Positions 56,854 through 64,000 of a stretch of 64,000 nt of DNA are shown here, one piece after another. The stretch spans positions 47,710 to 111,709 of the forward strand of contig JAJDDV010000081.1 in NCBI GenBank assembly GCA_029260135.1. Reading direction: 5' to 3'. The notes under the pieces were generated by a model, which saw only the letters and a program-made list of their open reading frames with translations, searched no databases and was not told the DNA's origin. Numbering within the stretch: position 1 is the first letter of the stretch; each line of letters opens with the position of its first letter. The stretch is from Phycisphaerae bacterium. GTDB lineage: Bacteria > Planctomycetota > Phycisphaerae > UBA1845. The position numbers and the translations under genes are program-made.

Positions 56854-58215
56854 TCATCGAACGGAACTCAGGGTATCGTCTAGGCAATCGACGGCGAAGT
56901 CGACGTCGGGTTTGGTGAAACACATCGGCGGCTTGATCCGCAGCACGTTGCCATAGACTCCGCCGCGGCCGATGAGCAGTCCGCGGTCCTTGGTGCCCTC
57001 ATGCACGAGGTCGGCTTCGTTGGAGGCCGGTTCTTTCGTAGCGCGGTCGCGGACGAGTTCGACGCCCAACATCAGTCCCCGACCCCGAACGTCACCGATG
57101 AGCGGTTGGGACTGTTGCAGATCGACGAGTCGCCTCTTGAAGTAGCTTCCGACCTCGAGGGCATTTTGCTGAAGGTTTTCGCTGTCGAGGATCTCGAGGG
57201 TTGTCAGCCCCTGGATCATGGAGACGGGGTTTCCGCCGAATGTGTTGAAGTGGAGTTTTTGCTTCATGCACTCAGCGATTTCGGGTCGGGTGGTTACGGC
57301 ACCGAGCGGCGCACCGTTACCGATGCCCTTGGCCATGACGACGATGTCGGGCGTGACGCCGTGCGCCTGGAATCCCCAGAAGTGAGTGCCGAGGCGTCCG
57401 AATCCGGTTTGCACTTCGTCTGCGATGCAGAGTCCGCCGTGGTCACGCACGATCTCGTAGACGATTTTGAAGTAGTCGGGCGGCGGATCGACGACGCCGC
57501 CGGCACCCTGAATCGGTTCGGCGATGAAGGCTGCGACCTTGCCCGACGTTTCATGGTCGATGAGCTGCGCCACGTCTTTTGCGCACTCGAGATCACAGGC
57601 GGGATGCTCGAGGGCGAAGGGGCAGCGATAGCAGTATCCCGGCGTGGCATGTTTGACGCCGAAGGCGTGGGGCATCGGGTATTTCCAGTTCCCCATTCCG
57701 GTGAAGCCCATCGTGGTTTGCGACCCGCCGTGGTAGCCGTTGCGTAGCGAGATCACGTCGAATTGCCCTGTGTGGAGTCTGGCCATCAGCGTGGCGAGAT
57801 CGTTGGACTCGCTTCCGGAGTTGGTGAAGTAACTCACCTGCAGGTTGCTCCCGGCGGGAAAACGTCCAGCGAGTTTTTTTGCGAGCTGAGCGATGGTCGG
57901 ATGAAGGAAGACGGTTGTCGTGTGCATGAGCATTCCGACTTGCTCTGTGACGGCTTCGACGATTCGCGGGTGACAGTGCCCGACGGATACGGAGACGATT
58001 CCGGCGATCGCATCGAGATATCGTCTCCCGGTCTCATCCCAGAGGTACTGCATGAAGCCTTCCACGATGGGCAAGGGATTCTTGTAGTAGGTGAAGACGG
58101 AAGGCGCGACGTACTGCCGTCGGTGTTGAAGAAGCGCATCGCGCGCGGGCCCCTTATAGGGCGTTGGCTTATGGGAACACTCTGTCATCGTCGCGCGCGG
58201 TCGTGTCGTGGACAT
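56854..58215 (-). CDS. Class III PLP aminotransferase (AGXT2-like)
   Basis: 'YLWDETGRRYLDAIAGIVSVSVGHCHPRI', 'SLRNGYHGGSQTTMGFTGMGNWKYP', 'LCIADEVQTGFGRLGTHFWGFQAHGVTPDIVVMAKGIGNG'. Confidence 0.94.
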   Translation of the reverse strand: MSTTRPRATMTECSHKPTPYKGPARDALLQHRRQYVAPSVFTYYKNPLPIVEGFMQYLWDETGRRYLDAIAGIVSVSVGHCHPRIVEAVTEQVGMLMHTTTVFLHPTIAQLAKKLAGRFPAGSNLQVSYFTNSGSESNDLATLMARLHTGQFDVISLRNGYHGGSQTTMGFTGMGNWKYPMPHAFGVKHATPGYCYRCPFALEHPACDLECAKDVAQLIDHETSGKVAAFIAEPIQGAGGVVDPPPDYFKIVYEIVRDHGGLCIADEVQTGFGRLGTHFWGFQAHGVTPDIVVMAKGIGNGAPLGAVTTRPEIAECMKQKLHFNTFGGNPVSMIQGLTTLEILDSENLQQNALEVGSYFKRRLVDLQQSQPLIGDVRGRGLMLGVELVRDRATKEPASNEADLVHEGTKDRGLLIGRGGVYGNVLRIKPPMCFTKPDVDFAVDCLDDTLSSVR

Positions 58216-58349: not shown

Positions 58350-59870
58350 ATGGGGTACGTGATGTCATCCGTGAAACGGTTTTTGACGGCGGAGGAAGTT
58401 CCACGCTGGTTCGGCCTGGCGATCGTTCTGATCTTCGTCGTGGGAATGACCACCGTAGCGCAGGTCGGCGACGATCGCGTTCGGGCTCTTGCCGTGGTCC
58501 TGACGGTTCTGGCGGCGTTGTTTCTGGTCTATCGATGTCTACGCGAGCAACAGCGGAGCGTTTCTCGTATTGCGGATCGCCTCAAGCGGCAGCGTGACCG
58601 TTTGGAGGATGATCTCGAGTCGCTGCGCATGTCCGATTCGGTCGACGCGGTCGGCGCGACGTGGAACGATTTGATCGAGCTTACGCTTCGGTTGCGTGAA
58701 TCGGTGAAGCGCTCCGAATCGAACGAGGAGCTGTCGCGCGCGCTGGAACAGGCCGGCGGCGGCGAATTGGCCGAGGCGCTTCATGCCATCCCGGACGGGC
58801 TGATGTATATCACGGATGAGTCGCGTTTCGAGTACGTCAACACGACGATGCTCCGCCTTCTGGGGTGGGACGGCGAGACGGCCCTGCGAACGACGCTTCG
58901 GGATGCCACATCGACCGGTTTCGGTGAGAAGTTACTGGAACTGGTGCAAAGCCTACTCCAGCCCAATGGGTCGTTCGAGTCTCGCACGGAGGTTCTGGAG
59001 ACGGGTGACGAAGTCGGAGATCGCAGCATCTATCGGGTCCGCGTGACCCCTCTCCAGCGGGCCCATAAGTCGGGTGAGTGTGTCGTCTTGGTCCGCGATG
59101 TCAGTCAACAGATTCGTGCGGACCGCGCGCGAGAAGAGTTCATCACGCAGGTCACGCACGAGCTGCGGACGCCGTTGACGAACATACGGGCGTACACGGA
59201 AACGCTGTCCAGCGGGATGTTCGACGATCCGAGCATCATCACCGAGTGCTACAACGTGATTACGAAGGAGACGCGACGGTTGTCGCGGCTGATCGAGGAC
59301 ATTCTGAGTGTCTCGCAACTGGAGGCGGGTTGCATCGAGCTTCAGATGGACCTTGTGGATCCCAAGACACTGTTGAGTGAAGCGGTTCGTGACGTGCGCG
59401 GTATCGCGGACGAGAAGGGCATCGATCTTCAGCTCATCCTTCCGGCCAAGCTCGAGCCGATTCAGGCGGACCGCGACAAGCTGGCGGTGGTCATCAACAA
59501 CCTCCTCGGCAACGCGCTGAAGTACACGCCGGCGAACGGGAATGTCGTTGTCGGATGCCAGGCGGGTAACAGTGAAGCGTTGATCACGGTGAAGGACAAC
59601 GGTATCGGGATCGACCCTGCGGACCAGGCGCGCATTTTCGACAAGTTTCAGCGTTCCGTCGACGCGGAGGTTCAGAACCAACCCGGTACGGGTATCGGGC
59701 TCTACACGGCGCGTGAGATCGTCCGCCGGCATCGCGGTGAGATTGAGCTCATGAGCGAGAAGGGGCAGGGATCCACGTTCGTGGTGCGTTTGCCGCAGAA
59801 GGAGAGTCGTGGGGGATCGCTGAGCGCTGCCGGTCCGAGTACGGGCAAGGCCGCGACGGTTCAGAGTTGA
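58350..59870 (+). CDS. Membrane sensor histidine kinase (TM, PAS, HisKA, HATPase)
   Basis: 'FITQVTHELRTPLTNIRAYTETLSSGMF' H-box; 'NNLLGNALKYTPANGNV', 'VKDNGIGIDPADQARIFDKFQR', 'GTGIGLYTAREIV'. Confidence 0.95.
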   Translation: MGYVMSSVKRFLTAEEVPRWFGLAIVLIFVVGMTTVAQVGDDRVRALAVVLTVLAALFLVYRCLREQQRSVSRIADRLKRQRDRLEDDLESLRMSDSVDAVGATWNDLIELTLRLRESVKRSESNEELSRALEQAGGGELAEALHAIPDGLMYITDESRFEYVNTTMLRLLGWDGETALRTTLRDATSTGFGEKLLELVQSLLQPNGSFESRTEVLETGDEVGDRSIYRVRVTPLQRAHKSGECVVLVRDVSQQIRADRAREEFITQVTHELRTPLTNIRAYTETLSSGMFDDPSIITECYNVITKETRRLSRLIEDILSVSQLEAGCIELQMDLVDPKTLLSEAVRDVRGIADEKGIDLQLILPAKLEPIQADRDKLAVVINNLLGNALKYTPANGNVVVGCQAGNSEALITVKDNGIGIDPADQARIFDKFQRSVDAEVQNQPGTGIGLYTAREIVRRHRGEIELMSEKGQGSTFVVRLPQKESRGGSLSAAGPSTGKAATVQS

Positions 59871-59900
59871 GGACGTTGATCGCTGAGGAGGCTCTATCCT

Positions 59901-60287
59901 GTGCCGACCATCCTGATTGTGGAAGACGAAGCGCACATCATCCGCATTCTTTCGTTGTGGTTGAAGCGTCACGGGTATGACATTCTCGAGGCGTCCAACG
60001 GTGAGGCTGCGCTCGATGTCCTCGATCGTGAGTCGGTCGACGTCATCATTTCCGATATGAACATGCCTGTCATGGACGGATTGACGTTGGTGAAGACGGT
60101 CCGTGATGAGCGTGGGATGTCGATTCCGTTTCTGTTGATTTCGGCCCGTTGCGACCAAGAGCAACTGTCTGAGCGGCTGAAGCCTTATCAGGTTGAGCTT
60201 TATCCGAAACCGTTTGCGCCGTCTCGGCTGGTGGCGGAGATTGACCGGATGCTGCATCCCACGATTACGGAGAACCCATCCACGTGA
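59901..60287 (+). CDS. Stand-alone response-regulator receiver protein
   Basis: 'TILIVEDEAHIIRILSLWLKRHGYDILEASNGEAALDVL...VDVIISDMNMPVMDGLTLVKTVR...PFLLISAR...YPKPFAPSRL'. Confidence 0.93.
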   Translation: MPTILIVEDEAHIIRILSLWLKRHGYDILEASNGEAALDVLDRESVDVIISDMNMPVMDGLTLVKTVRDERGMSIPFLLISARCDQEQLSERLKPYQVELYPKPFAPSRLVAEIDRMLHPTITENPST

Positions 60288-61627
60288 GCGCGTCGGATCC
60301 ATCCGCACTCCCTTCACCCGAATCCGCAGGTGATGTACGTCCGGCGACGGATGCGCGCAGCGGTCTGGAGTTGCTGCGCAGTCACTTGACGCCGCTCAAA
60401 CAGGACGCGCGCATCGACCGGATGCTGTCCAACGTGAGCGAGTCGGTCGAGCGTCTGGCGGTGGAACACTCGGGAATGGCCGAGGAACTGCTCTGTGTTT
60501 ATGAGCAGCTCGGCATCGTTTTCGAGATGACGGGCAAGCTCCCGAGTATCCACCGTGAAGCGGAGGTGTTCGATCTTTTCGCGGATTGCCTTCGGCGGAG
60601 CTTTACGACGCGCGAGGTCTTCGTCGTCGATCCTCACGCGTTGCTTCCGGGAGGCTCGCATGGCGGGCGCGCGCTTTACGGAGACTGGATCGACGCGTTG
60701 ATCATCCGGGCGCGCGACCAGGCGAGCGTCATCGTGGAGGGTCCCGAGGCCGCCGCGGAAGCGCGAGCCCCAGCGGAGATCATGGTGGGTCCGGTATTCG
60801 CGGGCGAGTCGTTCGTTGGTGCGATCGTGCTCGCGGCGGAGGAAGCCAGCGAAGCGTTCCGCGCGGGCGACATGCTGTTGCTCGAATCGTTGACGATGTT
60901 CTGCGGCGACCTGATCCGGAATCTCCGTCTGGTCAACGAAGTTCGGGAGATGTCGCTGGACATGGTGCGCGCGTTGGTCAATGCGGTCGACCACAAAGAC
61001 GAGTATACGTCGGGGCACTCGGTTCGTGTCGGTTATTTTGCCACGATTCTCGGAAAGTGCGTCGGCCTCAAGGACGAAGAGCTGCAAATGCTCCGATGGA
61101 GCGCTCTTCTTCACGACGTCGGCAAGATTGGAATCCGCGACGATGTTCTGAAGAAGGAAGGGAAGCTGACGGCGGAGGAATTTGATCACATCAAGGAGCA
61201 TCCTGTCCGCAGCCATCGCATCCTCCAGGAAGTGCCGCAGTTGTCTCGGGCGAGTGACGGCGTCTTGTATCACCATGAACGATGGGATGGGACGGGATAC
61301 CCCGAGGGATTGGCGAGCGAGGACATTCCGCTTCAGGCGCGGATCATCCACATCGCTGACGTGTTCGACGCGTTGACCTCCGATCGATCCTATCGAACGG
61401 CCTTCACGTGGCAGAAGGCGCTGGAGATTCTCGATGAAGACTCGGGCAAGACGTGTGACCCCGATCTCCAGCCTCTTTTCGACAAGCTGATTCGCGAGAG
61501 GGTTGAAGGGAGGCCATCGGGTTGGACGGATCTTGTTCAGCACGCCGGTCGCTTCGCCCACACGGGGGACATTGATCCTCTACCGAGTCCGATTCCGCTA
61601 CGCGGTCACGGAGGTGACACCACATGA
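60284..61627 (+). CDS. GAF-like/HD-GYP domain protein (predicted c-di-GMP phosphodiesterase)
   Basis: 4-nt overlap with the response regulator (GTGA); 'LLHDVGKIGIRDDVLKKEGKLTAEEFDHIKEHPVRSHRIL', 'LYHHERWDGTGYPEGLASEDIPLQARIIHIADVFDALTSDRSYR'. Confidence 0.94.
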   Translation: MSASDPSALPSPESAGDVRPATDARSGLELLRSHLTPLKQDARIDRMLSNVSESVERLAVEHSGMAEELLCVYEQLGIVFEMTGKLPSIHREAEVFDLFADCLRRSFTTREVFVVDPHALLPGGSHGGRALYGDWIDALIIRARDQASVIVEGPEAAAEARAPAEIMVGPVFAGESFVGAIVLAAEEASEAFRAGDMLLLESLTMFCGDLIRNLRLVNEVREMSLDMVRALVNAVDHKDEYTSGHSVRVGYFATILGKCVGLKDEELQMLRWSALLHDVGKIGIRDDVLKKEGKLTAEEFDHIKEHPVRSHRILQEVPQLSRASDGVLYHHERWDGTGYPEGLASEDIPLQARIIHIADVFDALTSDRSYRTAFTWQKALEILDEDSGKTCDPDLQPLFDKLIRERVEGRPSGWTDLVQHAGRFAHTGDIDPLPSPIPLRGHGGDTT

Positions 61628-62949
61628 CACTGACGCTCCTGCTTCCTTGGTTTCCGATCGTTCTGGCGGTTGGCGTGGGCGGGCGTATTCTCGGACGCAC
61701 GCGTGGACTGGCGATGGGGATTGTGTCGGCGTTGTTCTGGCTGCTGCTGGTGCAGGCGTCCGCGGGCGACGGGTTTTCCGGTCAGCCGTGGGTTGTTTTG
61801 TCGATGATCGCCGGGGCGACAGCCATCGTGGCGATGGGCCGTTGGTCCGGCGAGTTCGCCGCGTCCGAAGCGGATTCCACGGTCTCGAAGAAAACGGCCA
61901 CGGTGTCCCCCGAGGCGCACGTGACCGAGAGTCGACATCTCATCGCGGCCGTGGACCGGTTTGATGACTGGCTGCATGAGCATCGCGAAGACAGTGATCC
62001 CTGGCCCAAGTTCGACGAATTCGTTCGCGCGCTTTTGTACGAGTTTTGCCAGGCGACGCACGTGCGGCCGTATCGTCTTCTCAGCGGAGGCGACGACCTC
62101 GTTGCTCTGCACGATTCAGAGCCACTTGGCGACGATGACCGTCTCTCGGCGCGTCGCGGGATCGTCGGGCACGTCGTGACGACGGGGCGTCCGTATCTTT
62201 TCGGCGATGCTTCTCAGGGCGAACTGGTCAACCGGTTGGGCGACGAATCGGACGAGCCGATCGCGTGGTGCTTCGCCATCCGCCAGGGGCCTCGTCGACT
62301 CGGTGTGGTTCTGGTGGGGCAGGTCGGTTTCGCGCCGGATCAGCAAGTCATCTTCCGTCGTTCGATGGAACGGTTGGTGAATCAGTTCTGGTGCACGCTG
62401 GCGGAAACGATGTTGAGCCGTTCTGCGGCACAGGTCGATCCGGCGTCGGGTCTTGCGACTCGCTTCGCGTTTCTGCGTGTCGCGGAGGAATCGCTTCGAT
62501 CGTCTTACAAACAGGGTGAACCGGTTGCGATCGTCGTCATGGCGATCGAGGGTCTTCGGACGTTGAACGACACGGGTCGCTGGGAGGTGGCGGACGAAGT
62601 CGTCCGCGCGGTGAGCGACGTTCTACGTCGCAAGGTGAGAATGGACGACCAATTGGGGCGGTTTGACGATTCACGAATGGTGCTCCTTCTTCGCCGCGTC
62701 GATTCGGAACTCGCCTCTTTGATTGTCGCCCAGATGATGTCGCGGGTGACGGCGGTCTGTTCGGATGCTTCGCGGTGGGGCAGCTCCGTGTGTGTACGGT
62801 GCGGTGTGACCGGAAGTGGAACGGATGAGCCGACGCTTCGCACGCTGATGTCGCGCGCGCTGATTCAGTGCAGCCGGGCGCGGCAGGCGCATGCTTCGGT
62901 GGCGAGTGATTTCAGCGTTTCGGTCGAGGCCGATGGAGCGCCGGCGTGA
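61624..62949 (+). CDS. Membrane GAF plus degenerate GGDEF-like protein
   Basis: ATGA overlap with upstream gene; N-terminal TMs; 'DPASGLATRFAFLRVAEESLRSSYKQGEPVAIVVMAIEGLRTLNDTGRWEVADEVVRAVSDVLRRKVRMDDQLGRFDDSRMVLLL' has GGDEF-domain topology with RFDDS at the signature. Confidence 0.78.
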   Translation: MTLTLLLPWFPIVLAVGVGGRILGRTRGLAMGIVSALFWLLLVQASAGDGFSGQPWVVLSMIAGATAIVAMGRWSGEFAASEADSTVSKKTATVSPEAHVTESRHLIAAVDRFDDWLHEHREDSDPWPKFDEFVRALLYEFCQATHVRPYRLLSGGDDLVALHDSEPLGDDDRLSARRGIVGHVVTTGRPYLFGDASQGELVNRLGDESDEPIAWCFAIRQGPRRLGVVLVGQVGFAPDQQVIFRRSMERLVNQFWCTLAETMLSRSAAQVDPASGLATRFAFLRVAEESLRSSYKQGEPVAIVVMAIEGLRTLNDTGRWEVADEVVRAVSDVLRRKVRMDDQLGRFDDSRMVLLLRRVDSELASLIVAQMMSRVTAVCSDASRWGSSVCVRCGVTGSGTDEPTLRTLMSRALIQCSRARQAHASVASDFSVSVEADGAPA

Positions 62950-63281
62950 AAGTAGACCAACAGAAGATCGGAACCGTCGATGTGCTCTCGCCTGTGGGTC
63001 CACTCGTTGATGAGGGCGCTACGGCGTTCGCGAAGGTCCTTCTCGACCGCGTCCGGTGCCCGAACCCTCGGGTGGTCGTATCGCTGAGTGAGAGTCCGTA
63101 CTTGGACAGTACGGCTGTGGAAGGGCTGGTCGAAGCCTCGGATCAACTGGCGGATCGTGCCGCGAGTCTTCGCCTGGTGGAGACGCCGGCGACGTGCCGC
63201 GAGATTTTGGAGCTCACGGGCGTCGCGGGTCAGTTCAGTTTCTTCGAGGATGTTCACAGTGCGGTCAGGAGCTTTCTGTAG
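62946..63281 (+). CDS. STAS-domain protein (anti-sigma factor antagonist-like)
   Basis: GTGA overlap with upstream gene; 'VVVSLSESPYLDSTAVEGLVEASDQLADRAASLRLVETPATCREILELTGV'. Confidence 0.85.
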   Translation: MKVDQQKIGTVDVLSPVGPLVDEGATAFAKVLLDRVRCPNPRVVVSLSESPYLDSTAVEGLVEASDQLADRAASLRLVETPATCREILELTGVAGQFSFFEDVHSAVRSFL

Positions 63282-63370
63282 ATCGCGACGTTTGACGAGG
63301 GCATTGGCGTTTTCCGCAACGGTCAGCCGGTCGGCCGTCCTGAAGCAGCGAATCGGCGTGGGCTTTCCTG

Positions 63371-64000
63371 ATGACGAACCTGGCGATTGAAAACGTGGTC
63401 CGACTGGGTGAGCAGCTCCTTCATGATGGGCTGATCACGCAGGAGCAGTTGGCCGAGGCGCTGGTTCGTCAGCAGGAAAGTGGGGGGCGTATCGGCGGTG
63501 CGTTGGTCGGGATTGGTGCGATTTCGTCGGGGACGCTGGTCCAGACACTGGCCAGCCGCCTCGGCGTCAAAGGCTGTGTTCTGCGCCACGGGCTCATCGA
63601 CCCGAAGGTGGCCAAGTGCATTCCGAAGGAAGAGGCAGAGCGTCTTCGGGTGCTTCCCCTGTTTCGGATACACGACGAGTTGACGGTCGCGATGGTGGAA
63701 CCGCAATCCCTTCCGGTTCAAGACCGGCTGCGCGATTTGACGGGGTGTTCGATCCGACCTGTCCTGGTGATCGCGGAGAACCTCGAGGAGTATCAGCACA
63801 AGTACCTAGCGGCTGAGGTCACGGTGGATACGTTCCTCGCATCGATCGAGGAGAGCGACGTTCGTATCACCGAGACGGAAGCGATCGACGAAGGCCCCGT
63901 CACGGACCTGGACAAGATGATCGAGGGCAGCCCGATCGTGAACCTCGTCAACCTCGCTGTTTTGACGGCGCTTCGGGCGGGGGCGAGCGATGTCCATATC
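63371..64000 (+). CDS. GspE/PilB-family secretion/pilus ATPase with MshEN-like N-terminus (3' end outside window)
   Basis: Not in the ORF track because no stop lies before the window end; ATG at 63371 reads 'MTNLAIENVVRLGEQLLHDGLITQEQLAEALVRQQESGGRIGGALVGIGAISSGTLVQTLASRLGVKG...SPIVNLVNLAVLTALRAGASDVHI'. Confidence 0.88.
   Translation, partial: MTNLAIENVVRLGEQLLHDGLITQEQLAEALVRQQESGGRIGGALVGIGAISSGTLVQTLASRLGVKGCVLRHGLIDPKVAKCIPKEEAERLRVLPLFRIHDELTVAMVEPQSLPVQDRLRDLTGCSIRPVLVIAENLEEYQHKYLAAEVTVDTFLASIEESDVRITETEAIDEGPVTDLDKMIEGSPIVNLVNLAVLTALRAGASDVHI

Follow-up and report, generated by a model that had tools for sequence, protein, structure and literature searches.

The question raised by this locus is whether six consecutive genes at the end of the analysed DNA, a 64,000-nucleotide stretch of a Phycisphaerae genome (here called the window), form a unit dedicated to the control of a pilus-type motor or stand together by chance. 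All six are present on the plus strand from position 58350 onward, where the first-pass annotation had placed them, and their identities were confirmed with Pfam and NCBIfam. The first gene encodes a membrane histidine kinase (HK; 58350..59870, 506 aa) with a TM hairpin and PAS, HisKA and HATPase_c domains. It is followed by a stand-alone receiver (RR; 59901..60287, 128 aa; Response_reg) in which the phospho-acceptor Asp is present, a predicted HD-GYP phosphodiesterase (60284..61627, 447 aa; HD_5, 3e-39) with a probable N-terminal GAF region, a GGDEF-like protein designated GGDEFx (61624..62949, 441 aa; GGDEF, 1.2e-13) with three TM helices, GAF and a degenerate GGDEF domain, a STAS protein (62946..63281, 111 aa; STAS, 2e-12) carrying Asp54-Ser55, and the N-terminal 210 aa of a PilB/GspE-type assembly ATPase (63371..64000; MshEN), which is open at the window end. 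A divergent class-III aminotransferase gene on the minus strand (56854-58215) forms the upstream boundary of the block.

The 4-nt stop/start overlaps noticed earlier at 60284, 61624 and 62946 are all real; the last, between GGDEFx and STAS, was found in most relatives, and the other two are variable among them. The cluster had also been read as a phosphorelay. This reading was dropped because neither an Hpt domain nor a second receiver was detected by Pfam and NCBIfam in the six proteins, so that the cluster provides only HK and one single-domain receiver and no relay protein. In HK of the window genome, 35 residues separate TM1 and TM2 (58350-58560), compared with about 168-247 in intact family relatives, and the periplasmic sensor loop is absent in frame. 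This absence may be an assembly fault in this genome, although short loops recur in other lineages (L055, L149 and L153).

The kind of machine that the ATPase serves can be judged from the genes that follow it. The window ends where contig C204 ends, and pilB is therefore cut at 210 aa. The remainder of pilB opens a second contig of this genome, C152 (L100), whose end shares 16 nt with that of C204, and joining the two yields a 586-aa PilB ORF with Walker A, equal in length to that of the closest relative; this probable join agrees with uninterrupted relatives such as L038. On C152, pilB is followed by pilC (T2SSF), pilM, pilN, a pilO-like gene assigned by position only, a small gene at the pilP position and several prepilin genes. 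With pilC, pilM, pilN and prepilins found, the downstream genes are related to T2SS/T4P, as the first-pass annotation had supposed in connecting the cluster to a pilus/secretion motor. The small gene (L100:4721-5302) encodes a conserved membrane-anchored protein after pilO that has no Pfam or NCBIfam match.

It could be argued that this machine is a type II secretion-like pseudopilus rather than a pilus, and that the cassette controls secretion. PilB of L038 scored 562 bits as PilB and 550 bits as GspE, both below their equivalog cut-offs, and the downstream prepilin genes are of the GspG/GspH type; the ATPase scores alone do not settle the choice between pilus and type II secretion. However, PilM and PilN are encoded by separate genes, the window genome encodes PilT and secretins elsewhere, and PilT directly follows PilB in sister clusters, which favours a pilus. 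We consider a pseudopilus unlikely on this evidence. The same genome also contains a second pilus/secretion locus (G000:C178:1911-6058), where a PilT gene lies between two further PilB/GspE-type ATPases.

Conservation of the gene order was determined from the DNA surrounding the HD-GYP gene in 40 relatives and from 20 loci obtained by a contig scan. Of 33 family loci, counting the window, 29 have the order HK-RR-HDGYP-GGDEFx-STAS-PilB intact; the remaining four are interrupted by contig ends, so that all the untruncated family loci (29/29) keep it. Similarly, 7 of the 8 loci sampled elsewhere in the order, which is an uncultured one within Planctomycetota, have it intact, and the eighth breaks off at a run of N. 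Ten genes through pilO were found in order in 24 loci. This result indicates that the linkage of the six genes is far beyond chance and agrees with the conserved neighbourhood anticipated by the first-pass annotation. Since the arrangement is kept across the uncultured order, the block is probably a dedicated motor control unit and not a chance run of genes.

Linkage of this kind could also arise if the regulators drove expression of the pilus operon or of other targets and never contacted the motor. STAS proteins often act on sigma-factor control, and a scan for promoters and terminators gave signals no more frequent than expected by chance, which would fit such co-location. Nevertheless, no DNA-binding output domain was detected in the six proteins by Pfam and NCBIfam, the linkage is long-lasting over divergent genomes, and the ATPase itself contains an MshEN domain; we therefore regard co-location without contact as improbable.

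The MshEN c-di-GMP motif had been suspected at the start of PilB, and both the published pattern and the NCBIfam domain identify it there. It spans 53 residues (63401..63559, plus strand; PilB residues 11-63), scores 52 bits against a cut-off of 38 (NCBIfam c-di-GMP_motif), and matches the relaxed published pattern twice (PMC5013675), as two 24-residue motifs with a spacer of 5 residues. In a Foldseek search with the model of the PilB N-terminus, the best matches were 5htl (MshE with c-di-GMP) and the PilF GSPIIB domain with c-di-GMP. The case against c-di-GMP sensing named in the first-pass annotation, an MshEN model that lacks the c-di-GMP-binding residues, did not arise. Motif I ends in Gln, and motif II ends in Arg where MshE has Gln61; Arg at this position is allowed by the relaxed pattern (PMC5013675). 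The turn Gly of motif I is lost in some relatives. From motif and modelled fold, we infer that the MshEN domain of PilB may act as a c-di-GMP reader.

The enzyme expected to degrade c-di-GMP appears complete. The HD and GYP motifs, reported as intact in the first reading, are present with their metal ligands, and residues H245, H277, D278, K281, H306, H330 and H331 as well as GYP are invariant in orthologs; among solved structures, 4mcw is nearest in sequence. With the catalytic residues kept, the protein is predicted to be a c-di-GMP phosphodiesterase. For GGDEFx, the lack of the signature noted earlier extends to all orthologs: the signature slot reads DDSRM in the window and DDSRM/F in orthologs, and the first metal Asp is replaced by Ala. 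On these residues the reading as an active diguanylate cyclase was rejected, and GGDEFx is predicted to be catalytically dead.

What GGDEFx retains is the I-site. In 42 of 43 orthologs, an RxxD motif precedes the signature slot by exactly five residues (RMDD in the window, with Arg339 and Asp342), and R374 lies at the distance that matches the second-site Arg of PelD (R402), a position occupied by Arg in 23 of the 43. The model of GGDEFx (pLDDT 89) contains three membrane helices, a GAF-like domain, a linking helix and a GGDEF fold, and matches GGDEF structures, several of them with c-di-GMP. As a control, the canonical GGDEF proteins of the window genome were inspected, and 7 of 8 carry RxxD, so that the motif in GGDEFx may be inherited and is weakened as proof of selection. 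The stronger point is that the dead GGDEFx proteins keep RxxD while most intact cyclases of the sister clusters are without it (absent in 4 of 5, or in 3 of 4 if the near-identical L192 and L193 are counted once). GGDEFx is thus a candidate PelD-like c-di-GMP receptor, judged from its motif and predicted fold. Kinship with PelD found no support by sequence, as a PDB sequence search to E 10 gave no PelD chain. Elsewhere the genome encodes ten high-scoring GGDEF domains that could be a source of c-di-GMP. On another contig, GGDEF and HD-GYP domains are adjacent or fused (G000:C53:71809-72714).

Searches found GGDEFx in 77 of the 114 order genomes, and no full-length GGDEFx in 293 other genomes sampled from the phylum. 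Outside the order, the composition of the cassette varies. The other orders of the class have the orthologous PilB behind STAS, usually together with a histidine kinase, and without receiver, HD-GYP and GGDEF; the cassette of a second PilB lineage reads HK-RR-HDGYP-STAS-PilB. Elsewhere in the phylum, in other classes, the order HK-RR-HDGYP-GGDEF-STAS-PilB was observed in L195 and L196, and from HD-GYP on in L194, and the same cassette lacks HD-GYP in L192 and L193. The GGDEF slot of these five cassettes is occupied by an intact GGEEF cyclase with the same TM-GAF-GGDEF layout, whose orthology to GGDEFx is proposed from position and layout, since unrelated GGDEF proteins reach equally high scores with the profile (up to 82 bits).

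When gene order was placed on the PilB tree, the order was grouped (94/81), the 14 rows with HK-STAS-PilB formed a clade (100/100), L158, which has a degenerate GGDEF, fell outside both, and L194-196 fell outside L158. The simplest reading is that the ancestral cassette had a working cyclase, which became inactive near the base of the window's class, and that receiver, HD-GYP and GGDEF later disappeared from one clade of this class, leaving HK-STAS-PilB. A change in MshEN appears to track this loss: motif II starts with Arg or Lys throughout the order (all 20 members on the tree) and likewise in L158 and L194-196, against only 2 of the 14 members of the clade without the three genes. As few independent events are involved, this is suggestive only.

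Individual loci differ in other ways. In L158 (11116-16082), receiver and HD-GYP are divergent and adjoin HK-GGDEFx-STAS-PilB, an intermediate arrangement. L159, a member of the order, has no HD-GYP and keeps STAS-pilB. In L052 (1986-7767), another member of the order, the genes run HK-RR-STAS-PilB-PilC, HD-GYP and GGDEFx being missing as a unit and STAS-pilB kept, and the receiver stop and the STAS start overlap by 4 nt.

The STAS gene had been described as a switch inserted into the cluster, and here the comparison gave the opposite result. Across the class, and in other classes as well, the gene immediately upstream of this pilB is STAS, even without receiver, HD-GYP and GGDEF; these three come and go and STAS beside pilB is never lost, which rules out STAS as a late insert. 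Among 119 phylum genomes, the eleven best STAS matches all adjoin PilB, and none was found beside the five other PilB/GspE paralogs of the window genome that were checked. Asp54-Ser55, the SpoIIAA-type phosphosite, shows no variation among 22 sequences from the order or in the alignment of the class; in the broader comparison Ser persists throughout, with Glu in place of Asp in L194. The cluster encodes no serine kinase that could act on STAS, and one strong RsbW-type match is located elsewhere in the window genome, at C165.

The persistence of the STAS-PilB pair where the three other genes are missing, the invariant Ser and the absence of STAS beside the five paralogs raise the possibility that the core is HK-STAS-PilB, in which STAS, phosphorylated on Ser or not, gates PilB directly and HD-GYP, GGDEFx and c-di-GMP are accessory. 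Against this, the window's order retains the c-di-GMP genes in nearly every case, MshEN appears functional, and to our knowledge no contact between STAS and an ATPase has been described. We find it rather doubtful that STAS alone is central. Our preferred reading, held with slightly better than even confidence, is that the six genes are a dedicated control unit of a type IV pilus-type (PilBCMNO) motor in which c-di-GMP and STAS both take part.

In such a unit, the membrane HK, which carries PAS, would phosphorylate the stand-alone receiver, and the receiver would set the activity of the neighbouring HD-GYP, a contact proposed from their adjacency, and hence the level of c-di-GMP near the machine. 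The local degradation of c-di-GMP feeding the motor, as in the first-pass annotation, may be envisaged in this way. The c-di-GMP, made elsewhere in the cell, would be read by PilB through MshEN and also at the I-site of GGDEFx, the dead cyclase in the membrane, as motif and fold suggest for both. STAS, whose translation is coupled to that of GGDEFx and whose gene always adjoins pilB, may be an adaptor that can be phosphorylated on serine; by binding PilB, GGDEFx or both, it would pass the sensor state to the motor. We infer both the target of STAS and the direction of motor control. More tentatively, and with somewhat less than even confidence, STAS may be a dedicated serine-phosphorylated regulator of PilB in a unit that spans several classes of Planctomycetota, joined by a pseudo-cyclase that was turned into a c-di-GMP sensor from the cassette's own active cyclase.

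Control of pilus ATPases by c-di-GMP is already known, with MshEN receptor ATPases as precedent (PMC5013675, PMC11656802), and each part of the cassette is of a known kind. MshE of V. cholerae, PilB of M. xanthus and PilF of T. thermophilus share with the present ATPase the double 24-residue motif, the 5-residue spacer and the fold, whereas here motif II ends in Arg and the ATPase belongs to an operon-like unit with HK, receiver, HD-GYP, pseudo-GGDEF and STAS. PelD, a degenerate GGDEF receptor in Pel export (PMC7112168), has the same TM-GAF-degenerate GGDEF layout and RxxD I-site; GGDEFx differs in having a pilus ATPase, not a polysaccharide locus, as its neighbour, in the lack of a sequence match and in the third I-site Arg, kept in only 23/43. 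A degenerate GGDEF protein also takes part in c-di-GMP control of PilB in the FimX-PilZ-PilB system of Xanthomonas and Pseudomonas (PMC11656802), but FimX reads c-di-GMP via EAL and PilZ bridges, and neither EAL nor PilZ is found here.

For STAS, the pairs HsbA-HsbD and SiaC-SiaD of P. aeruginosa provide a comparison, since a phosphorylatable regulator binds a GGDEF protein and HsbA Ser56 matches the position of the STAS Ser (PMC5085249, PMC8457831); phospho-HsbA binds HsbD (PMC5085249). HsbD and SiaD are active cyclases, in contrast to the predicted dead GGDEFx in a pilus locus. In the HmpUVW partner switch of Nostoc punctiforme, the STAS protein HmpV is the output of a system required for pilus-dependent hormogonium motility (PMC6495340); unlike the present cassette, HmpUVW has its own kinase and phosphatase partners, and no HD-GYP or GGDEF is described with it in that report. 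In the open-access literature searched, we found neither a locus combining sensor, phosphodiesterase, pseudo-cyclase, STAS and MshEN motor nor a constant STAS-PilB pairing. What appears to be new is the joining of all these parts in one conserved control unit, together with an intact-cyclase version in other classes. The locus makes it possible to test direct gating of PilB by STAS, the effector of HmpV being undefined in that report (PMC6495340), the conversion of a cyclase into a receptor at a fixed gene position, and the decay of MshEN binding residues once the c-di-GMP enzymes are lost.
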